Assembly: GCA_013335425.1 (NCBI GenBank)
Contig: JAAXVQ010000044.1
Coordinates: forward strand, 1 to 10,114
From: Candidatus Firestoneibacteriota bacterium
Lineage (GTDB): Bacteria > Oederibacteriota > JAAXVQ01
Length of the DNA: 10,114 bases
Direction: 5' to 3'
Below the pieces are notes generated by a model that did not search any database, was not told where the DNA came from, and saw only the letters and a list, made by a program, of their open reading frames with translations. The first letter of the stretch is position 1; each line of letters starts with the position of its first letter. Positions 167 through 9,857 of this stretch are shown here, piece after piece. The position numbers and the translations under genes are program-made.

Positions 167-772
167 TTAAGCAAGTTTTTTTACAATGATTTCCAAGGGG
201 CGTTTCACGGGCCCCTTGTGCATTCTCGCCGGATAACCGATCGGCACCACGGCCATGAATTCTCCCCGGGGTTCCCCCAAAAGCTGGAGCACTTCGTCTT
301 TCAACAAGAAAAGGATGCCCAACCATACTGCGGCCAATCCCAAGGAGGTTGCCGCCAGCAATAAATTTTCAACGGCCGCGGCCGAACTTTGGATTTCCAT
401 GGTCCGAAAAAAATCATGTGACAGGTCGCTTTCCAAGCCAAAAAGCGTTTTACCGTGTTCGATCAGCTCGCCGGTGTTGGCCACGGCAATCACCGTGGGT
501 GCGCCGGCAATGGAGCGTGAAGCCATACGCAGGAGGATGGAAGCGGAACGCGGAAAATCATTTGCACGGGCATTGATCAGCTCGGCCATTTCCCGTTTTT
601 TTTCGCCCTCCACCACGATAAATCGCCACGACTGCTGATTATGCGCCGAAGGGGCGACATTGGCGGCTTTTAGCACCGCCGTAACCGCCTCGGCAGGCAC
701 GGGCATTTCCAAAAAAGTACGAATACTGTGCCGGTCATGGATGACACGCAATGTCTCATTATCAAGATTCAC
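167..772 (-). CDS. Nitroreductase-family FMN oxidoreductase
   Basis: This 201-residue protein has the normal length for the NAD(P)H-dependent nitroreductase family, cytoplasmic FMN enzymes usually working as dimers. Visible landmarks are the N-terminal FMN phosphate-binding RHSIRTF (residues 14-20), APSAHNQQSWRF (40-51), the dimer-interface and FMN helix EIQSSAAAVENLLLAATSLGL (about 126-146) with AVWLG after it, and VPIGYPA (176-182) near the C-terminus. The start codon is GTG at 770-772. It is chosen because GGAGGG at 779-784 lies six bases upstream and the reading frame begins the family's usual N-terminus there. The true substrate (nitroaromatic, quinone, flavin or other) cannot be read from sequence; members with this motif set are functionally diverse. 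It is divergent from the TPR gene, and the two share a compact promoter region. Confidence 0.93.
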   Translation of the reverse strand: MNLDNETLRVIHDRHSIRTFLEMPVPAEAVTAVLKAANVAPSAHNQQSWRFIVVEGEKKREMAELINARANDFPRSASILLRMASRSIAGAPTVIAVANTGELIEHGKTLFGLESDLSHDFFRTMEIQSSAAAVENLLLAATSLGLAAVWLGILFLLKDEVLQLLGEPRGEFMAVVPIGYPARMHKGPVKRPLEIIVKKLA

Positions 773-774
773 GA

Positions 775-803
775 TTTACCCTCCGCGACGGTAATGTTAT
801 AAT
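775..803 (+). promoter_or_regulatory. Sigma-70-type promoter of the TPR gene
   Basis: The -35 box is TTTACC at 775-780 (4 of 6 consensus bases), the spacer is exactly 17 bp, and the -10 box is a perfect TATAAT at 798-803. Transcription would begin near 810. This places the upstream in-frame ATG at 751 outside the transcript and excludes it as the TPR protein start. Confidence 0.7.
779..784 (-). promoter_or_regulatory. Ribosome binding site deciding the GTG start of the nitroreductase
   Basis: The minus strand reads GGAGGG, a near-perfect Shine-Dalgarno sequence, six bases before the GTG at 770-772. It supports the non-ATG start. It overlaps the -35 box of the divergent TPR gene by two bases. 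Confidence 0.75.
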
Positions 804-830
804 AGTATATGAATTTCTATTTTACTTCAA
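804..830 (-). promoter_or_regulatory. Candidate divergent promoter of the nitroreductase gene
   Basis: On the minus strand a TATACT -10 box (804-809) follows a TTGAAG -35 box (825-830) with a short 15-bp spacer. Transcription would begin near 798, giving a leader of about 25 bases. The -10 box abuts the opposing TATAAT at 798-803, so the two promoters would compete for RNA polymerase. The short spacer keeps confidence moderate. Confidence 0.4.
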
Positions 831-885
831 CGTACTTACGCAGATTATGCTTACCAAAAAAGCCTTTTCAGTCGATAATGCCGGT

Positions 886-2070
886 ATGAATATCCGAAAA
901 GCCTCATTCTTAACGGTTTTGCTTGTGTGTGCCGCTTATGGCGGCACGGTCGGCAATGCCTGGGCCTCACCCAACGCAGAGCATGACTCCGAAAATCCCG
1001 CTTTGAAAATGGCGAACAAAAATCAAGCTATCCAGCATTTTCAGTTGGGGAAAAATTTACAACAACGAAAGTTATACCAAGGCGCCATTTTGGAATTTGG
1101 AAAAGCTTTGGCATTAGACCCCGGCTGGGAAGAAGCCAGGTTGGCCCTTTCCTGGGCAAAACAGGATCTTGCCCGAAACCAACAACTGGAAACCAAACAA
1201 GCGGCTTCCCTGCCGGATTTGATTAAAAAAGCGCAGAGTTTTTATGACCGGGGACGTCGTTTGGAAGCCGAGGAAAACCTTATCGATGCCGCCTTGGCTT
1301 ACAAAGAGGCGCTCGCAACTTTGGCAGGGTTTCCCGAGGCCAAACTTGCCCTTAAACGCATTCAAGCCAAAGCCGGCACCTCCCTGGAACGGCCGCCGGT
1401 TGAAAACACGCCCCGGGAGCCGCTTCAAAATACAGTCAACGCATCTTCCTCTTCCACGGAACAGGCTTTAAACATTCTTGGCAATCAACCGAAAACCTCC
1501 AAGTTGGCCACTGATATCGTTCTGTCTCATCCCGTAAAAACGGGCAGAGTCCAACCGGCTGCTACGGCGGCAGACACCAAAGTCAGTCAAGCGGTGCAAA
1601 TGCATTACCTCAACGGCACGCAATCTTATGACAGCGGGGATTACGCCGCCGCGATCGCGGAGTTCCAACTGATTTTAGAATTTGTCCCGCACCATAAAGG
1701 CGCGCTTTACAAGTTGGAGCAAGCGCGAAAAAAACGCGCTGAAGAGATCGCTGTCGCCGAACGAAAAATCGAAGAAGCGGCGGCGGCCGGAGACACGGTT
1801 GGAAAACTTAAAGCCATGCACGATATGACCGTCATGGACCCGGACAACCGGAAAATCTCCGAAGCGTGGGATTTGGCCCGCAACCAGAATCAGGATCTGG
1901 TGGAAAAACTCTACCGCCAGGGGGTGGATTTATATGCACGGGAAAATTATACGGATGCCTTGAAAAAATGGGAAATGGCTCTGAATTTAAACCCCTACCA
2001 TAAGAAGTCCACAGAATCCATCAAACAGGTCAGGGAAAAGCTATTGCGCATATCCGATCAAAAACAATAG
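886..2070 (+). CDS. Exported TPR-repeat protein
   Basis: This 394-residue protein has a Sec signal peptide: charged start MNIRK, hydrophobic core at about residues 8-16, and a type I cleavage site after AWA (residue 27). The mature part holds TPR-type helical hairpins at about residues 47-100 (ending in ALALDPG), 107-160, 237-280 (SGDYAAAIAEFQLILEF), 290-335 and 337-385 (ENYTDALKKWEMALNLNPY). A Pro/Ser/Thr-rich, probably disordered linker (about 163-233) separates the first two from the last three. TPR arrays bind protein partners, so an envelope scaffold or assembly role is plausible, but no partner is shown. The ATG at 886 is chosen because it gives a standard signal peptide; an in-frame ATG at 847 would add 13 residues. 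Neither has a clear Shine-Dalgarno sequence. The frame is open back to 751, but that part lies upstream of the promoter. Confidence 0.85.
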   Translation: MNIRKASFLTVLLVCAAYGGTVGNAWASPNAEHDSENPALKMANKNQAIQHFQLGKNLQQRKLYQGAILEFGKALALDPGWEEARLALSWAKQDLARNQQLETKQAASLPDLIKKAQSFYDRGRRLEAEENLIDAALAYKEALATLAGFPEAKLALKRIQAKAGTSLERPPVENTPREPLQNTVNASSSSTEQALNILGNQPKTSKLATDIVLSHPVKTGRVQPAATAADTKVSQAVQMHYLNGTQSYDSGDYAAAIAEFQLILEFVPHHKGALYKLEQARKKRAEEIAVAERKIEEAAAAGDTVGKLKAMHDMTVMDPDNRKISEAWDLARNQNQDLVEKLYRQGVDLYARENYTDALKKWEMALNLNPYHKKSTESIKQVREKLLRISDQKQ

Positions 2071-2111: not shown

Positions 2112-2636
2112 TCAGGCCAGAAACCCCATTACCATATAGAACAGCCCCAATGCTCCAAACCCGATTCCCACCAGCCACATGAATTGCTTTTTAATGAACA
2201 CACCGACGGAGTTCAGCATGATTGCAATTTGCAGAAGCATTACCGCCAAACCAAATTGACCGGAATGTTTTTTAAAGGCATCAGTATCCTTGCCGAGCTG
2301 TTCCGCGGTCGCCTTAATTTCGTTTTTCTCCTGATTGTACCGCTGAATGTCCGATTGAAATTTCCCCAAAACCGCTGTAATCAATTTTCGTTCCGCCGGG
2401 CTTTTCGCCATGGACAATTGCAGTTCCAGCAGGTCCCTTTGAGTTTCGGAAATATGCTGTTTGGTGCTTTTGGACTGGAAGTAAGACCAGGCGTTGGTCT
2501 GTTGGGTGGTTAAGAGTTGAACTTTGGTGGAATAGCCGCCGCCCTTAAGCGAGGAAATCGCCGCGGAAACGGCCAAAATGGTGGTTACAATGGCCGCCCA
2601 TTGCGTCCAGCGTTCTTTAAGCAATTCAATGACCAT
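2112..2636 (-). CDS. DUF4337-like small membrane protein
   Basis: This 174-residue protein has an N-terminal hydrophobic helix at about residues 13-30 (AAIVTTILAVSAAISSLK), a hydrophilic helical middle (about 35-125) and two C-terminal membrane helices (about 128-147 and 153-173). The signature GGGYSTK, then NAWSYFQSKSTKQH (48-61), matches what I know of the DUF4337 family, where a short stretch with a W-x-Y/F-x-x-KS-x-KQ core follows the first membrane helix. The family has no established function; an inner-membrane location with a central helical domain is all that can be inferred. The ATG is supported by AAGGAAG at 2644-2650, seven bases upstream. The gene converges on the TPR gene with only 41 bp between stop codons, and I see no strong hairpin terminator there. 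Confidence 0.88.
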   Translation of the reverse strand: MVIELLKERWTQWAAIVTTILAVSAAISSLKGGGYSTKVQLLTTQQTNAWSYFQSKSTKQHISETQRDLLELQLSMAKSPAERKLITAVLGKFQSDIQRYNQEKNEIKATAEQLGKDTDAFKKHSGQFGLAVMLLQIAIMLNSVGVFIKKQFMWLVGIGFGALGLFYMVMGFLA

Positions 2637-2798: not shown

Positions 2799-2804
2799 AG
2801 CGCC

Positions 2805-2832
2805 GTTATCCCCTTTTGCAAAAAGGGATAAC
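2805..2832. repeat. Central hairpin of the MITE-like element
   Basis: GTTATCCC (2805-2812) pairs perfectly with GGGATAAC (2825-2832). One C/A mismatch and a TTTT/AAAA inner stem around a central GC complete a 28-base near-palindrome. There is no T-run directly after it on either strand, so it is not a typical intrinsic terminator. Confidence 0.75.
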
Positions 2833-2996
2833 ACACAGGCACCTTTATTCGCGAGCCATTCGGAGCGGTATTTGGATCTTTCGAAGATTTAAGTCCGACA
2901 GGTTCCTAGGTTGGAAAATCAGCTCGATCTTTTTCCGGAAATTTTAAATGCCTGCTAATGGACCAAGCTGAGAGCGTTGCTTTCAACACCTTAATA

Positions 2997-3560
2997 TTAA
3001 GCGTCCCAATAGTAGTCAAAACGGCAGAATTTGTCACCGCGGGCCATGCAATTCGGATGTATAGTCCTGACATTTTTCGCGCCGACCAAGCGCAGGACTT
3101 CGGCCATATACCCAAAATTGGCAAACTCATGATGCACGGGAATATCGGGCATGTCGACGACTCTCAATTCACAATGCGAACCCGCGATGGATTCCATGCT
3201 TAATTTGCCGCTGTCGTAATAGCGTGCCCAGAGTTGTGCGGCTTTGCCGAAGATCGCTTTGGGGGTCAACACCAGGAAAAAAATGCGGTAAATTCCTTTC
3301 GTGTCCATCCTGGCAATTTCGCTGTTATAATCGAGAATCATCTGTTTGTCACCTTTGCCGAAGAGCTTATCCGCCAAGAGCATGTACCGCGTATAAGCGC
3401 CGTAATCCACCCAACCAATGGGCAAAATGGGTTTGCCAAACAGCAATTTTTGATCATCCGCGCTTAATTGGGACTTGATTTTTTCATCCGCGGCCGCCCC
3501 GATTTTTTTTATCACAAGCGATTGAAAAGCCAGGAACGCCGTACCTTTGGCATTGGCCAT
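2997..3560 (-). CDS. DUF2378/V4R-like sensor-domain protein (paralogue A)
   Basis: This 187-residue protein has no signal peptide or membrane helix. It opens with KGTAFLAFQ (5-13), has GIYRIFFLVLTPKAIFGKAA (89-108) and LWARYYDSGKLSME (110-123), and ends with an NVRTIHPNC-MARGDKF-C-RF segment in which Cys171 and Cys179 are seven residues apart. This fits the DUF2378 (TIGR02265, myxobacterial paralogue) type, which resembles V4R and haem-NO-binding folds that hold small ligands. The ligand and output are unknown; no catalytic motif is seen. The ATG at 3558-3560 is supported by AAAGGAAG (3570-3577). The next gene upstream on the same strand is a diverged paralogue, with 159 bp between. The assignment rests on motif resemblance. 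Confidence 0.8.
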   Translation of the reverse strand: MANAKGTAFLAFQSLVIKKIGAAADEKIKSQLSADDQKLLFGKPILPIGWVDYGAYTRYMLLADKLFGKGDKQMILDYNSEIARMDTKGIYRIFFLVLTPKAIFGKAAQLWARYYDSGKLSMESIAGSHCELRVVDMPDIPVHHEFANFGYMAEVLRLVGAKNVRTIHPNCMARGDKFCRFDYYWDA

Positions 3561-3719: not shown

Positions 3720-4289
3720 TTATTTCCAGGTGAAGTGAAATTCACAATTGGAATCATGATTGGCACGGCATTTTACTTCCTGCCCTTGACAATTTTTCCC
3801 CCCGGTAGCTTCCAAGGCTTGGAGTATCCCCCCAAGCTCGGTTTTACAGTAAATTTTAGGTGGATTAATCGGTGAATGAATGGTGCATTGCATCTGACCG
3901 TCGGAGACTTGGACAATGCTCAAGGTTTCATGGTCGAAATACATCTTCCACAAGGCCGGAGCCTTGGAAAGAACCCAAGAGGTATTGAGTATGCCCATCA
4001 TCATGCGGTATATGCTGTTGAGTCCGTCGCCGATGATTTTTTTACCGATCTCGACACCCAACATGGGATGCGCTGGCCCCATTTGCTTTTCAATTTCCTG
4101 CAGCAGGACAAAGTATGCTTCCAGCGGATACCACTTGGAAGAAAGCACCAAGCCGGAAAACAAGGAGTGCATTTGCGGAGGCAAACCGGCTATAACGCGT
4201 TGCCAAACTTCTTCCCCGCCGCGCTCCTTCACGAAATCGGACACGGATTTAACACAACTTCCTTTGATGTTGGATTGATCGCCGGGCAT
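3720..4289 (-). CDS. DUF2378/V4R-like sensor-domain protein (paralogue B)
   Basis: This 189-residue soluble protein has the same layout as its neighbour: KGSCVKSVSDFV (9-20), SSKWYPLEAYFVLLQEIEK (50-68, close to the SSWYPL.YV.LL style of DUF2378 proteins), SIYRMMMGIL (92-101), ALWKMYFDHETLSI (112-125) and a C-terminal Cys174-x7-Cys182 pair followed by EFHFTW. Overall identity to paralogue A looks low, but the motifs and the Cys spacing match, which points to an old duplication. Its ligand and role are unknown. The ATG at 4287-4289 is supported by GAGGGGTG (4297-4304). A candidate promoter (4339-4367) lies just upstream, after the end of the giant GH65 gene. Confidence 0.8.
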   Translation of the reverse strand: MPGDQSNIKGSCVKSVSDFVKERGGEEVWQRVIAGLPPQMHSLFSGLVLSSKWYPLEAYFVLLQEIEKQMGPAHPMLGVEIGKKIIGDGLNSIYRMMMGILNTSWVLSKAPALWKMYFDHETLSIVQVSDGQMQCTIHSPINPPKIYCKTELGGILQALEATGGKNCQGQEVKCRANHDSNCEFHFTWK

Positions 4290-4436: not shown

Positions 4437-7400
4437 CTAAACAGAGTTGGCAAACCCCAAAAAGCGGCGAAATTTTCCGGGTTGTTGTTCTATGGTTTTC
4501 AAACCTAACGTCGTTGCCATGGTTCCCAATGCTCGTTGAATCCAGGTTGGTGCCATCGACCAAATACGGTGCAATGCTGGGAAAGGTTTCAGCATTTTTT
4601 CAATAGCCTTCACTCCGGAGTGTGGTCGAGTATTTTGTGGAGTCTGTATTCGTCCATTTTTCTTTACAGGTTCCTGGCTGTCATAGGTCTCACCGGGTTT
4701 TAAAATCACTTCTTTACCTTCGATAATAAGTGTGATCGCACGTCCCCAGCGTCCTTGACGATGAACGATGATCCGGCCGGTATCTGAACATAACGTGTAA
4801 TCGATTCGTTGTCCCTGATAGGTAAAGGGTATGGTTAGCGTTTTTTGTGCAAAAGGCGGAAAAACCGGGTTTAGCGACAAGTATTCTTTGCCATTTAGTT
4901 GGATGGGTTCAATCCCCCCAAACCCTTTATGGAAAACTTGCAAAACACCGCCCTGAGTGGCGGCGTGCAGGCCCTCGGCCGTGTTTTGTTGAATATTTTT
5001 TAAATCTAAATTTAATGTCATGCTGATTTCCTCAGCAATGATTCTTCCACTGGCATGCTCATCGGTAAAGGCCATGACCAACGTTTTAAGATACTCGATA
5101 TCCTCGATCGATTTATCCATATCTTTAAAAATGGTCAGATTTAATTCCTTGAGTTTGTTTCTTAAGGCGGCGTTTTTTTCATTGTTCAAGAGCTTTTCAT
5201 TATTAAGAATTTTTTCAAGGGGCTCAATACCCAATTCTTTCAGGAGGGCGGCTTTTTGATGAACGTCGATCTGTTTTAACAAACTATGAATTTTGAGCAG
5301 ATTGAGGTTATGGATGGGACGGGTCAAGGACGATCCTCCGCTGCAACGGAATGTATAGTAAACATAATTAGATATCAAAGTTTTTATATAGAGCAGGTGA
5401 AGTTCTTCAGCCGTAATGTTTTTAAATCGTTCGTTTTTTCCAATCCAACCGACTACCGTGGCTTCAGGCATCAAATACAACAGTAAGTTGACATCAGGCT
5501 GCTTAATGACGTCTTGGGTACCTGATTCAAGTCCTACTTTTCTGAGCTCTGCATCAATGCCGGTTTTGCCCGGGTTTAGGGAACGAAAATCATAATGGTC
5601 AAGATTATTGAATCCCCGAAACTGTTTGAACAGAAAGCTTTCGGGATCAAACGTCACAGGGATATTGTCCGCTACTTCCTTATAAGTGTTTACGAAATCA
5701 GCAGGCAGGGACAGTTTTTTCATAAGCCTTTTTTGATGATACGGCGTTAACGACGAAAATATTTCCAGGGCCATCTTAATGTTTTGCTGGGCCATGCCGT
5801 TGGTGAAGGCGTTGTCGTCGATGCCGGCTTCACCAGGAGCGTCAAGCGGGTAGCGCTTTTCACCATGATATTCATCGGGCCCGATTACTTGGTTAATGTG
5901 ATATAGATTATCCGAACCTTTTTGCACTTTATTAACCCAGAATTGCGAGGTGGCCAGGAGCATTTCAGCTCCCATCCATTCCATGAAAGTTTGGTTGCCG
6001 CTGGCTAGGGCATACTTGACTGTGGCATAGGCTACATCTGCGCTGATATGCAGCTCATGCGTCCCCGGACGAATCATCACCAGTTCGCCCTTTTCATTGA
6101 TGGCAAAACTGGGGCATTGTTCCCCGCCGTCGGCAGCCTCCCAAGGATAGGCACCCCAAGTAGCTTTGCGCAGGAGCTGGAGACCTTTGACCAAAGTGGT
6201 CGGTAAAGACCGATGACGATACTCGAGCAACTCCAAAGCATATTCCGGCAACGCCAACGCGAAATACAGCAGACTGTAAATTTCGCCGTCCCAAAAACGA
6301 TGCCCGGAGTAGGCAGAAACATGTGCAAGTCCTTTGGGAGCCAACGTCGCTTGGCCGTGCAAAGGACGTACCATTTGCGCTTGATGGAACTGATTGAACC
6401 ACAGCGCACGCTGCATTTCAGCCACCTGTTTTGGATCTTCCTCCTGATTTCCCTCAAGCTGTATGGCAGAACGTTCCCAGATTTCCCGCCACGCTTGGAT
6501 ATGAGTGTCCAAAATCACCGAGTAGTTGTTGTGCTTATCACGAATATCTTGCTTGCAGGCGTTGACCGGGTAGTCTTCCGGCTTGCCGAAGCGGGCTGTC
6601 CACCAAGTCTTGGTTTCATAATCTTTTGAAGTATGCACACTTACAATTTTTTCCAGCGTGTTTTCACCTGGCTTAAGCGGCATCTCCGCCACTTGGTATA
6701 ATTTACTATCTCCCTTGCTTTTGTTAGTAGCAATCGCAATGGGTCCATCCGGACTGCTGATACGAGACCCTAAAGCAATAATTGTATGGTTATACTTGGT
6801 GGTAACTTTAACCACGGTTGTACCCTCGGTATCGGAAGACTCGAACTCTGGGACATTAAAATATTCTTGGCCTTGGGTTTTAACATTCGTATCGATCTCG
6901 GAGCTCACGAACGCAGTGGCGCCTGTGTATTCCAATGGTTTGAGTGTGTAACGAAGGGCGGATAAATGCGGCGATGACTGGCTCATGAGACGGGTGACGG
7001 TGATGCGCGTACGATACCCTCCGGGATCCGTCCAAACCAGACTTTCTTCCAAAGTACCGTTCAATTGCAAGGTTTCGTGATATTCACTAAGTTGACCCTT
7101 TCGCGCTGCTTCATCAATGTTAAAGACATAGGCTTTTTCGTCAGCATGTTTGAGTTCAAGGTGCATTCCCCAGAAATTAGGGAGTTTGACCAACTGGGCG
7201 GTGTTTTCTACGGCCACCAGCGAAAGATCAGGTTTGTCTTGCGGTTTGGTCTCGTAAACTCCGGCTGCATAAATGGCGGGTTCATGCCCCGGATTTCCGG
7301 CATGCACACCGTCGCCGCGAGCCCCCAGGTACCCATTTCCCAAAGCTCCCTGGCTTCCAAGCACCAGGACTGAAGACCAATCAGTTGTTCCCTTCTGGTT

Positions 7401-9857
7401 TAGCGGGTATTTATCCGCCAATTCTATTCTCTCATTTAGCGGCGAAGCATGCCCGCCTTCTGTCTCGGCCAAGTGAGTGTTCCCAAACCTATTTGGGAAG
7501 AAATGGCGGATTTGTACGACCAACCAGGTAATTCCGAATGTTAAGCCCAAAACCCCAAAGGACGCTCCCCCGTCAAAAGGGAGCAAGGAAGACACTACCG
7601 GGATTTTGGGTCCAAGCGTGACAAAGCCGACAAACGCAGAAACGCCTAACGCGAAATTTTTGGTCGTCAGTACCAAATTTTCCGGGGAAAAGAAACGTTC
7701 GGCTGCTTGTACGAACTTTTCCCAGATGCTTGGCGAAATATTTTTTAGTTTTTGAATGGCATCGGAAATTGTGGCTTCGTCAAGCAACTTGTACTTTTCC
7801 ACCAGTCCCGCGCCCAAAATGCCCAGCACCTTGGCCGTTGTTTCCAATTGCATAAGATTTTTCTGATTCACCCAAGTGAATATTTGGGCACGGACGGCTT
7901 CTGCGATTTCTTCGGCGTTCTTTTGATCAACGGAAATACCTAGCGCGATTGCAACTTGCGTCAGTTGAGCATGATCATCCACGGCATCCAAAGCGTATGC
8001 TCGCGACTGGTTGAAGTCGGCCGTTGGCACGGAAGCTTCGGGTGTTTTGGCAGAATGTCCCCCGGACCATAGACTTGTTATCCAATCCCAGGCGACTTTA
8101 CCCGTAAGCGGCGAATCGGACAACCAGGAAGCGACTTGTTTATGATAATTCAGACTTCGCTGTTCAACCCATGCATAATGCCATCCATCGCGTTCACTCT
8201 GCGAGATGAAGGTTAACCCGGCAGGATCGATTTTTTGCCCTTGCTGCAGAACTAAAGTAAGCCCATTGTTCAGGGAGATAACCGCGGTTTTTCGGTTTGG
8301 ATTGGCTTGGAGTTTTTTAGGTAAAGCTTCTTTTAATTCATACTTCCCTTCCTGAACGATGCTGAAGAGTTTTTCCAACTCTGTATTGTCCAAACGTCCC
8401 TTTATAGCCGCCTCTAAAGCAGTGTTTTTAATCAATAGTGAGGATAAAAATTTCAGCCACGCTTCTGTGGGCAGTTCAAACTCCGGTTTGGGTGAAAAGG
8501 CGGCGGGATGGTCGGACAGCCATTTTTGCAAGCCGGAACGCTTCCCCATCAATATATTAAAATATTGATTTTCGGTTTCCTGATGCGTAATGCGTGGGTT
8601 AATGCATACATAGGAAATGCCGCGGGCTTTCAAGGCGGCCAGGGTTTTTTCCGTATGAAAGCCGCCGATAATCAGCGCGGAAACTTTCGTGCCCTGCCGC
8701 TGCATGAGGCGGCACGTATTTTCAACAAAAGCTTGGCTGCGCAGATCGGCCAGCCGATAAAAATCGGCGGCCTCGTTCAAAGTCCCGTACAACGCATTGA
8801 TGTCTTGGCCCCAGGTATTGGTTTGATCGGAATCATGCCGAGCGATAAATTCCAGGATTCTGGCGGGTGAAAAATCTTGCCTTCGGCCGGTATATTGCGC
8901 CCACTCATCCGGGGTTACGGAAAGATTGATGATTTTCTCCAGGGTGTCCAGCCGAAATTGCAAATCATCCAGTTCCCGCTGTTCGTCGTTGGTATATAAG
9001 CGTTCGCGTAACGCCCGTTCCACAATTGACAAGTCGCGGTTGAGACCTTCCACGGATTGATAGTTTAAAAGCTCGGAGGTTTTCTTAAGATATTGATCCA
9101 GGCTCGGGTATGCCTGCAAGCTCATGCCTTGTTTTCGAGCTTGAGCCGCCAACCAAACAACAAAATTCGGGAACGAATTGGGTTTTTCCAGGAGCTGAGT
9201 GCGTTTTTTCTCCCAAGCGGTTAGTTCGGCGTTGTAAACCTTGGTTTTGGTTTGGTTCAAACCTTCGCGCAAATCCTGCAAGGTACCTTGGGATTCATCG
9301 GTTAGAATTTTTTTAACATCCGCCAGACTTCGGGCATACAAGCCGGGTGTTTCAATGCCTTCCAAAGCTATGAGTTTTTGGCTCAGAGCTGCATACGCCT
9401 CGGCGCCCGTGAGCCTGCCTTCGTGCATAAGCTCATCCGATGTGGCTTGTTTTACTGTGGTTATAGGGAACGTGGCCAAAGCGCTGACATCCAACGGATG
9501 TGAGGCGCCTTCCAAGGCTACCAGCTTTAAGCCCTTCTGCTCGGTTAGAACACTTAAAATTCGTGCAATATTCGTCTGAACTTCAAAATGACAATGCAGA
9601 TCCCGAATAACAAAAACCAACTGATCATTGCCTTGAAAGGATTGAGCAATGTTCCCCAGCGAGGCAGGCAGGGATAAGACCGGGCTTGCGGCTTGAAATG
9701 GGTTGGGATCAAAGGACCAGGACAGATATGGGAGAAAAAATGATAAGGCTAGCCACAGCGAAACGGCTTTAAACCAATGCCGTTGGCGCCATTTTCCACA
9801 ATATGAAGAAATCAGATACCCACTCAAAGTCACTGCTGTCATCACCCGAGTTCTCAT
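4437..9857 (-). CDS. Giant exported TraB/ChaN/TIKI-like + GH65 multidomain protein
   Basis: This 1806-residue protein has, in order: a signal peptide or anchor (hydrophobic residues 30-47 after a basic stretch, possible cleavage near SWS-FD); a domain at about 75-425 with DLHCH (86-90), ALEGA (114-118) and GGFH (398-401), recalling TraB/ChaN/TIKI-type folds; a helical region; a hydrophobic hairpin (about 733-787); and a full GH65 module (about 815-1700). GH65 landmarks are GNGYLGARG (840-848), AGVYE (865-869), HRFWDGEIY (1186-1194), GAYPWEAADGG (1235-1245), the general-acid motif VIGPDEYH with Glu1329, VIKQPDVNLLLYLMPE (1450-1465), TAEGLHAATQGG (1626-1637) and a C-terminal beta domain near LSLNP (1660-1664). 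GH65 enzymes cleave alpha-glucosides such as trehalose, maltose or kojibiose by phosphorolysis or hydrolysis; the substrate here is unknown. The usual His of the phosphate loop is Gly1507. The ATG at 9855-9857 has no clear Shine-Dalgarno sequence; Met6 is an alternative. Confidence 0.9.
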   Translation of the reverse strand: MRTRVMTAVTLSGYLISSYCGKWRQRHWFKAVSLWLALSFFLPYLSWSFDPNPFQAASPVLSLPASLGNIAQSFQGNDQLVFVIRDLHCHFEVQTNIARILSVLTEQKGLKLVALEGASHPLDVSALATFPITTVKQATSDELMHEGRLTGAEAYAALSQKLIALEGIETPGLYARSLADVKKILTDESQGTLQDLREGLNQTKTKVYNAELTAWEKKRTQLLEKPNSFPNFVVWLAAQARKQGMSLQAYPSLDQYLKKTSELLNYQSVEGLNRDLSIVERALRERLYTNDEQRELDDLQFRLDTLEKIINLSVTPDEWAQYTGRRQDFSPARILEFIARHDSDQTNTWGQDINALYGTLNEAADFYRLADLRSQAFVENTCRLMQRQGTKVSALIIGGFHTEKTLAALKARGISYVCINPRITHQETENQYFNILMGKRSGLQKWLSDHPAAFSPKPEFELPTEAWLKFLSSLLIKNTALEAAIKGRLDNTELEKLFSIVQEGKYELKEALPKKLQANPNRKTAVISLNNGLTLVLQQGQKIDPAGLTFISQSERDGWHYAWVEQRSLNYHKQVASWLSDSPLTGKVAWDWITSLWSGGHSAKTPEASVPTADFNQSRAYALDAVDDHAQLTQVAIALGISVDQKNAEEIAEAVRAQIFTWVNQKNLMQLETTAKVLGILGAGLVEKYKLLDEATISDAIQKLKNISPSIWEKFVQAAERFFSPENLVLTTKNFALGVSAFVGFVTLGPKIPVVSSLLPFDGGASFGVLGLTFGITWLVVQIRHFFPNRFGNTHLAETEGGHASPLNERIELADKYPLNQKGTTDWSSVLVLGSQGALGNGYLGARGDGVHAGNPGHEPAIYAAGVYETKPQDKPDLSLVAVENTAQLVKLPNFWGMHLELKHADEKAYVFNIDEAARKGQLSEYHETLQLNGTLEESLVWTDPGGYRTRITVTRLMSQSSPHLSALRYTLKPLEYTGATAFVSSEIDTNVKTQGQEYFNVPEFESSDTEGTTVVKVTTKYNHTIIALGSRISSPDGPIAIATNKSKGDSKLYQVAEMPLKPGENTLEKIVSVHTSKDYETKTWWTARFGKPEDYPVNACKQDIRDKHNNYSVILDTHIQAWREIWERSAIQLEGNQEEDPKQVAEMQRALWFNQFHQAQMVRPLHGQATLAPKGLAHVSAYSGHRFWDGEIYSLLYFALALPEYALELLEYRHRSLPTTLVKGLQLLRKATWGAYPWEAADGGEQCPSFAINEKGELVMIRPGTHELHISADVAYATVKYALASGNQTFMEWMGAEMLLATSQFWVNKVQKGSDNLYHINQVIGPDEYHGEKRYPLDAPGEAGIDDNAFTNGMAQQNIKMALEIFSSLTPYHQKRLMKKLSLPADFVNTYKEVADNIPVTFDPESFLFKQFRGFNNLDHYDFRSLNPGKTGIDAELRKVGLESGTQDVIKQPDVNLLLYLMPEATVVGWIGKNERFKNITAEELHLLYIKTLISNYVYYTFRCSGGSSLTRPIHNLNLLKIHSLLKQIDVHQKAALLKELGIEPLEKILNNEKLLNNEKNAALRNKLKELNLTIFKDMDKSIEDIEYLKTLVMAFTDEHASGRIIAEEISMTLNLDLKNIQQNTAEGLHAATQGGVLQVFHKGFGGIEPIQLNGKEYLSLNPVFPPFAQKTLTIPFTYQGQRIDYTLCSDTGRIIVHRQGRWGRAITLIIEGKEVILKPGETYDSQEPVKKNGRIQTPQNTRPHSGVKAIEKMLKPFPALHRIWSMAPTWIQRALGTMATTLGLKTIEQQPGKFRRFLGFANSV

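Follow-up and report, generated by a model that had tools for sequence, protein, structure and literature searches.

Giant proteins with a TIKI/Ere-like header, variable cargo, and a conserved C-terminal tag form a candidate export family in uncultured bacteria

INTRODUCTION

Polymorphic secreted proteins combine a constant N-terminal trafficking part with a variable C-terminal effector, and LPXTG, PEP-CTERM, and type IX C-terminal domain (CTD) proteins are surface proteins that are sorted by their C-termini. Giant open reading frames (ORFs) are known from uncultured bacteria, where their roles have been called poorly understood (Seymour 2023, PMC10066038). They occur in lineages neighboring the one considered here (PMC10066038, PMC12057145, PMC11573180), and Skillet-clade Lipocone domains have been reported in gigantic Omnitrophota proteins (PMC12419801). 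Here, we describe an ORF at positions 4437 to 9857 (minus strand) of contig JAAXVQ010000044.1 from a Candidatus Firestoneibacteriota bacterium, which encodes 1806 amino acids in one uninterrupted frame. The window, i.e., the whole stretch of DNA analyzed, is this entire contig (G000:C294; 10114 bases), and the genome comprises 2.59 Mb in 525 contigs. An earlier note, made from the sequence alone, had read the protein as an exported fusion in which a TraB/ChaN/TIKI-like domain might be coupled to glycoside processing by a GH65 enzyme. With moderate confidence, we instead consider the ORF to be a member of a multicopy family of exported giant proteins, in which a constant head (hereafter, the header) and a constant tail enclose swappable cargo.

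Like the giant ORFs of Omnitrophota and PVC-like bacteria (PMC10066038), the members of this family are very long ORFs with few annotated domains and with transmembrane helices, from uncultured bacteria thought to be host or prey associated. Unlike those giants as described there, the header proteins share a head and a tail, and the order that carries them belongs to FCPU426/Goldiibacteriota. They resemble polymorphic secreted proteins in that a constant N-terminal part is joined to a variable, rapidly replaced C-terminal part, with many paralogs per genome. They differ in that the recognized cargo consists mostly of metabolic and signaling enzymes, that no recurrent partner or immunity-like gene was found, and that the extreme C-terminus is also constant. 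As in LPXTG, PEP-CTERM, and type IX CTD proteins, exported proteins that are otherwise unrelated end in a short, conserved signal; unlike the signals of those proteins, that of the header family is Arg rich and ends in -AA or similar residues. No sortase-type motif was seen by eye in the listed C-termini, and sortase-, exosortase-, or PorU-type enzymes were not searched for. Neither a common TIKI-type head nor such a C-terminal tag was reported among the literature matches listed, which did not extend to preprints.

RESULTS AND DISCUSSION

Extent and carriers of the header family

The header was delineated with an alignment of 16 modules (A1) and a larger alignment of 53 modules (A5). A first contig scan with the whole window protein turned up no relative. 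A whole-protein search of relatives (at most 8 candidates per genome scored) gave many matches, nearly all of which covered residues ~22 to 460. In the genome of the window, the A1 search identified 18 header matches, of which 13 are nearly complete and 5 are fragments located at contig ends. All 8 genomes analyzed from the order carry the header, with 8 to 34 matches each and 121 in total, pieces included, and the other 37 genomes of the phylum yielded a single weak match of 56 residues. Using A5 (at most 4 candidates per genome scored), we detected the header in 21 of 384 genomes, namely, the 8 of the order, the one with the weak match, and 12 from other phyla. Header-protein frames reach 9482 residues within the phylum, many being cut at contig ends, and 13841 residues in other phyla. 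Taxon-named header loci are labeled candidate division FCPU426, Candidatus Goldiibacteriota, Candidatus Firestonebacteria, or plain "bacterium"; Omnitrophota, the lineage assumed in the earlier note, is not among them, and this assignment was rejected.

The ~435-residue header lies close to the start of the protein (median residue 20 in 60 ORFs), behind a conserved signal-peptide-like stretch such as KIISLLLTLTFVFPYLTWAFE. Our call of a putative signal peptide, which agrees with the earlier note, is a by-eye reading of the family's conserved K/R-hydrophobic-WAF pattern. At the other border, identity over the 53 members falls abruptly beyond window residue 458. Three genomes from other phyla encode header-only proteins (L252, L253, and L254; 516 to 590 amino acids) that have a signal-like start and end shortly past this border, and these perhaps represent the ancestral stand-alone enzyme. 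An earlier search for a stand-alone header gave one match, in the genome of the window; its sensitivity was limited, since header-only ORFs exist in those three genomes.

Predicted fold and active-site-like residues of the header

The best structural neighbors of the predicted header model were EreC, HopBA1, BcR135, and ChaN, i.e., members of the TIKI/Ere superfamily. Eight residues (D86, L87, H88, C89, E116, G398, G399, and H401) are identical in all 53 aligned members, and the D-x-H, E, R, and H set is present in each of them with the spacings described for EreC. In terms of the 2His/2Glu set of the superfamily, in which His and Glu stand ~28 residues apart, H88, E116, and H401 are invariant, H88 and E116 stand exactly 28 residues apart in all members, and the first acid is D86, where the superfamily has Glu. 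Because of these structural neighbors and EreC-like spacings, the header is, by predicted fold and motif, a TIKI/Ere-superfamily hydrolase, although no superfamily Pfam profile detects it. The TraB/ChaN/TIKI-like N-terminal domain postulated in the earlier note is thus borne out by the structure prediction and the motif layout, and the DLHCH, LEGA, and GGFH motifs singled out there (residues 86 to 90, 115 to 118, and 398 to 401) are conserved far above chance.

Sequence comparisons gave no comparable signal. TraB_PrgY_gumN, Cofac_haem_bdg (ChaN), and Erythro_esteras were absent from the Pfam families listed at E values of ≤10 for 16 header members, and the PF05139, PF04187, and PF01963 profiles had no match in the 8 genomes of the order. 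A header profile matched a single PDB sequence (E 1.2), and hhalign comparisons returned nothing against the TraB and Ere alignments (the latter of just 4 rows) and no more than a weak result (P 0.003) against ChaN. Compared with EreA/EreC and the wider superfamily (BcR135, ChaN, TraB/PrgY, HopBA1, and RRSP), the header is therefore without a significant sequence or profile match; it also has a conserved signal-like N-terminus and end motif, and it serves as the constant head of giant proteins. In the available descriptions of the superfamily, Tiki is metal dependent, and RRSP and the Ere enzymes are metal independent.

A conserved tag at the extreme C-terminus

Most complete members finish in a conserved C-terminal tag. 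Among distinct complete C-termini, 49 of 56 end in AA, SA, SV, AV, or SS, compared with 21 of 264 flanking control ORFs (Fisher P 2.7e-33), which amounts to a short, conserved terminal signal, as in C-terminally sorted proteins. The controls include several header giants or pieces of them, making the contrast conservative. For this count, from 40 fetched stretches, 11 were dropped as running off the contig (judged by frame length), L196 had no stop, L108 was excluded, and one duplicate was removed. After correction for kinship, in which residues −220 to −21 formed 17 clusters represented by one row each, 13 of 17 retained the two-small-residue end (P 2e-10). Positions −12 to −7 of the tag are Arg rich, and a clear rise in information content is confined to the final dozen positions. 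The window C-terminus, FRRFLGFANSV, fits this pattern.

A 90-residue C-terminal profile from the largest cluster (24 members) recovered, at E values of ≤0.01, 8 of the 32 members held out. It also matched 13 of 286 flanking ORFs at this threshold, all of them ORFs or contig-cut pieces of 358 to 3253 amino acids and some being header genes. The C-terminal 90 residues of the window protein do not appear in the 45 rows listed for this search (E up to 8.9). Seventeen ends were fetched for header proteins from other phyla; the 13 complete ones end in A (8), I (2), L (1), V (1), or R (1). A neighboring protein of 1628 amino acids (L043:986-5872) carries the C-terminal footer and tag and, judging by its first 50 residues, no header.

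Variable cargo and its turnover

The genome of the window contains 17 further header places, from which 14 ORFs were scanned with Pfam (the second ORF of L117 and fragments L122 and L123 were left out). Four of the 14 had a match (E of ≤0.01): TreT with GT1, radical SAM with a kinase, a methyltransferase, and PPDK_N with a GWD-type domain. Matches in the tails from 57 of 69 loci of relatives (shorter ORFs and L108 were left out) included TIM, NTP transferase, SIS, alpha/beta-hydrolase, SecA DEAD, epimerase, AAA, LysM, HD, HATPase, cytidylate kinase, GDE_C (glycogen debranching), DnaJ, GH99, phosphomannose isomerase, and GGDEF families. Among more distant header proteins, the cargo includes a nucleotide-sugar (UDP-glucose-type) dehydrogenase (P0014; above the TIGR03026 cutoff) and a GMP-synthase-like amidotransferase (P0016; below cutoffs). 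In P0001, which is identical to FCPU426 locus L076, residues 1226 to 1410 match a SidJ-related pseudokinase below the cutoff, a possible hint at cell-to-cell effectors. One giant (L051) contains two tandem TIM domains at residues ~2800 to 3300; the second has the GNWK, GHSE, and YEP motifs, the first is without its N-terminal part, and the same genome also has a separate TIM gene. Catalytic residues are present in both cargo cases examined, i.e., GH65 and the second TIM.

This cargo turns over rapidly, including at syntenic loci of sister species. In two such pairs (L044/L059 and L054/L056), flanks and header are kept at 86 to 90%, and cargo is inserted, deleted, or replaced. The DNA of two paralogs from one genome (L071 and L100) is 85% alike from residue −6 to 458; the adjoining cargo has no DNA match, and similarity resumes as short blocks far downstream. 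The common DNA block extends to residue 600 to 622 in L067/L100 and L071/L072. Tail segments of 150 residues or more are common to 79 pairs of header proteins, and among the 25 such pairs listed, headers were more alike than tails in 23 (e.g., 93% versus 50% for L040/L083), about equal in 1, and less alike in 1. The window tail had no match (E 1e-6) among 96 other header-protein tails. Cargo differs between header copies in 7 of the 8 genomes of the order, these 7 being the ones whose cargo was scanned or compared (G004 was left out). A survey of neighbors at 85 loci revealed no dedicated or recurrent partner or immunity-like gene; the commonest families, headed by giant ORFs, occurred at 7 of these loci.

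The GH65 module of the window protein

Pfam recognized only two domains in the window protein, and its first 800 residues had no match. The hydrophobic hairpin described in the earlier note is present ahead of the GH65 module, though weak (two 19-residue Kyte-Doolittle peaks of 1.62, at 737 and 763). Both scores exceed the curated cutoffs for GH65 membership: 212.9 bits (cutoff, 27; E 8.9e-63) for Glyco_hydro_65m (PF03632; residues 1154 to 1538) and 111.7 bits (cutoff, 26.6; E 5.9e-32) for Glyco_hydro_65N (PF03636; residues 835 to 1078). The earlier note had called the module full. This holds for the N-terminal and central domains and the catalytic residues; Glyco_hydro_65C (PF03633) was unlisted at E values of ≤1, yet residues 1614 to 1719 align with residues 658 to 756 of 3wiq, a kojibiose phosphorylase, and the PF03633 label is also missing from many of the listed GH65 relatives. 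In NCBIfam, GH65 models scored under their cutoffs, alongside chance matches.

The general acid of the GPDEY motif is represented by E1329, which aligns with the Glu of 3wiq; this position is Gln in 4ktr versus Glu in 4ktp. Subsite −1 residues, as defined in PMC8626586, are present (W1189, D1190, K1452, and Q1453). According to the same source, GH65 phosphorylases differ from hydrolases in that a phosphate site of Lys, His, and two Ser residues replaces the general base Glu, and the window protein has K1175, S1509, S1510, and H1631 at this site. Of the 8 relatives listed, 7 have Arg at the K1175 position, and the remaining one has Lys. Because the general acid, subsite −1, and phosphate-site residues are all present, a phosphorylase mechanism is the better guess from the sequence. 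A pseudo-enzyme was rejected on account of the retained general acid and phosphate-site residues.

The module is 25 to 34% identical to the 120 relatives listed (nearest, ~29 to 30%). It agrees at 97 and differs at 47 of the 144 columns that are conserved in at least 90% of 59 GH65 relatives (P0052 and P0053 were dropped as fragments). W1239-E1240 match kojibiose enzymes. An insertion behind the general acid (residues 1332 to 1344) has a shorter counterpart at the same place in 9lb6, a GH65 enzyme named trehalose-6-phosphate hydrolase in the PDB, and none in the 8 relatives listed. Overall, the module shares GH65N/GH65m, the general acid, subsite −1, and the Lys/Ser-Ser/His phosphate site with GH65 phosphorylases such as 3wiq and with 9lb6. 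It differs in being fused behind a header, in the insertion past the general acid, and, relative to 3wiq, in having ~100 more residues between the KQ and EGLH regions. No second header-GH65 joint was found, in that GH65 was absent from the families listed for the 14 own-genome cargoes and the 57 cargoes of relatives. GH65 matches outside the genome of the window lie in frames of 660 to 1031 amino acids (8 candidates per genome scored). In genome G006, GH65-like ORFs without a header adjoin header genes (L071:1565-3916, L084:2457-5471, and L098:4017-4733); they form one cluster, identified by eye from its first sequence.

Proposed mechanism and alternative explanations

The N-terminal pattern and the family statistics suggest that the proteins would leave the cytoplasm by the Sec route, using the conserved N-terminal signal. 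The header would fold outside the cytoplasm and, given its fold and motif, may act as a hydrolase on a peptide, ester, or amide bond. Header and C-terminal tag together would help to route or mature every member of the family; for the tag, this is suggested by its pattern and distribution. Maturation could, for example, involve a cut at or past the conserved TPLEKLL stretch that closes the header, and the constant C-terminus could be read by some partner. The cargo would perform member-specific work at or beyond the envelope, and the phosphorylase-type GH65 of the window would phosphorolyze an alpha-glucoside, releasing beta-glucose 1-phosphate and a sugar. The main argument for cytosolic action, in the own or another cell, is the cofactor needs of several cargo enzymes. 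We tentatively raise the possibility, itself doubtful, that several uncultured phyla export or deliver giant modular proteins by a route not yet described. The TIKI-type head and the C-terminal tag would then be the two handles of a dedicated machine that exports rapidly exchanged metabolic and signaling enzymes (GH65, TreT, TIM, DnaJ, and kinases). Their destination could be a host or prey cell, with the cofactors provided by its cytoplasm.

The same cofactor argument could be accommodated if the header stood outside as a sensor or hydrolase, a hydrophobic stretch crossed the membrane once, and the cargo stayed in the own cytoplasm, an arrangement that we judge rather unlikely. Cargo that would depend on cytosolic cofactors includes TreT, radical SAM, methyltransferase, PPDK/GWD, cytidylate kinase, SecA-like, and NTP transferase domains, and a hydrophobic segment occurs 150 to 400 residues past GGFH in 50 of 65 members, compared with 126 of 387 control blocks. 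However, hydrophobic segments behind the header number from 0 to 6, which argues against a fixed single crossing; the charge asymmetry runs opposite to expectation, in an analysis that was ambiguous overall; and the genome with the tandem-TIM giant already has its separate TIM gene. The giant tails might instead be weakly selected mosaics without a common function, accreted neutrally behind headers that spread as cassettes. The tandem TIM copies with one incomplete member, the fast tail turnover at syntenic loci, and the 47 divergent GH65 columns are what such accretion would leave behind, but it would hardly preserve invariant header active-site residues, the catalytic and phosphate residues of GH65, frames of up to 9482 residues, or a tag at the far end of long variable tails, and we regard it as improbable.

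A smaller chance still attaches to the dedicated bifunctional envelope enzyme envisaged in the earlier note, in which GH65 glycoside processing is coupled to the TIKI-like hydrolase. One chain does hold both modules, with active-site residues in each. Against this specific pairing, other header copies in the same genome and in relatives precede different cargo, the window tail is unmatched among the other 96, and GH65 occurs elsewhere in shorter frames and in the header-less ORFs beside header genes of G006; a unique TIKI-GH65 pair was therefore rejected as the point of the protein. It is hardly credible that the ORF is an assembly chimera of two genes, the refuting case named in the earlier note, despite a header-GH65 joint seen in no second genome and a 10-kb contig from a 525-contig assembly. 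A fusion is unlikely because the frame has no internal stop, the guanine-plus-cytosine (GC) content shows no step where header meets GH65 (0.46 to 0.51 across residues 1 to 1400), header copies occur in each of the 8 genomes of the order, with cargo that varies from copy to copy in the 7 compared; moreover, a family-type C-terminal tag closes the same frame. We rejected the chimera on these grounds. The GC content of the final 400 residues drops to 0.40 to 0.45.

Significance

With an enzyme-like head and a C-terminal tag that stay constant around unrelated cargo, giants that had seemed mere oddities become a single family that can be defined and that has two handles for testing. The family spans FCPU426/Goldiibacteriota, with the header also present in the 12 genomes of other phyla, and it provides a starting point for asking what purpose giant bacterial proteins serve. 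Processing or routing of the chain by the header would be a new use of the TIKI/Ere fold, and delivery of the cargo would represent a new way for one cell to supply another with metabolic enzymes. Annotations that name a header protein by its cargo call for caution, since the protein may have no housekeeping role; P0016, for example, bears the source name GMP synthase-like glutamine amidotransferase.

Features of the window and neighboring genes

TABLE 1 Features of the giant ORF, with positions in the window
Feature	Position	Strand	Basis
Whole ORF, giant header-family protein with GH65 cargo	4437..9857	-	ORF and Pfam
Signal-peptide-like N-terminus, residues 1-48; family pattern like KIISLLLTLTFVFPYLTWAFE, window version KAVSLWLALSFFLPYLSWSFD	9714..9857	-	Pattern by eye
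Constant header module, residues 22-458, predicted TIKI/Ere-superfamily fold	8484..9794	-	Family identity plunges past residue ~458; predicted fold
D86-x-H88, first part of the active-site-like set	9594..9602	-	Invariant in 53/53; layout compared with superfamily
E116, 28 residues past H88 in 53/53	9510..9512	-	Family alignment
R373, 28 residues ahead of H401 in 53/53	8739..8741	-	Family alignment
G398-G399-F-H401 motif, end of a predicted strand	8655..8666	-	Alignment and model
Conserved header end, residues 430-458; family NPYFxLLxxRxTPLEKLLAQNQ, degenerate in the window	8484..8570	-	Family alignment
Linker, residues 459-735, poorly conserved	7653..8483	-	Family alignment
Weak hydrophobic hairpin, residues 736-785	7503..7652	-	Kyte-Doolittle
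GH65 N-terminal domain, residues 835-1078	6624..7355	-	PF03636, E 5.9e-32
GH65 central catalytic domain, residues 1154-1538; general acid E1329 at 5871-5873	5244..6398	-	Pfam, E 8.9e-63
GH65 C-terminal region, residues 1614-1719, contains phosphate-site H1631	4701..5018	-	Alignment with 3wiq
Insertion right behind the general acid, residues 1332-1344	5826..5864	-	GH65 alignment
Extreme C-terminal family tag, residues 1793-1806 (PGKFRRFLGFANSV)	4440..4481	-	Family C-terminus comparison

Near the giant gene, the window also encodes a nitroreductase family protein (167-772, minus strand), a TPR protein (751-2070, plus strand), and a DUF4337 protein (2112-2636, minus strand). Two adjoining proteins of ~188 amino acids (2997-3560 and 3720-4289, both on the minus strand) lie downstream of the giant gene and have weak V4R matches (E 0.003 and 2e-4, respectively; below the cutoff). 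These are possible candidates for small-molecule sensors, and the second protein of the pair also shows an HNOB/DUF2378-like trace.
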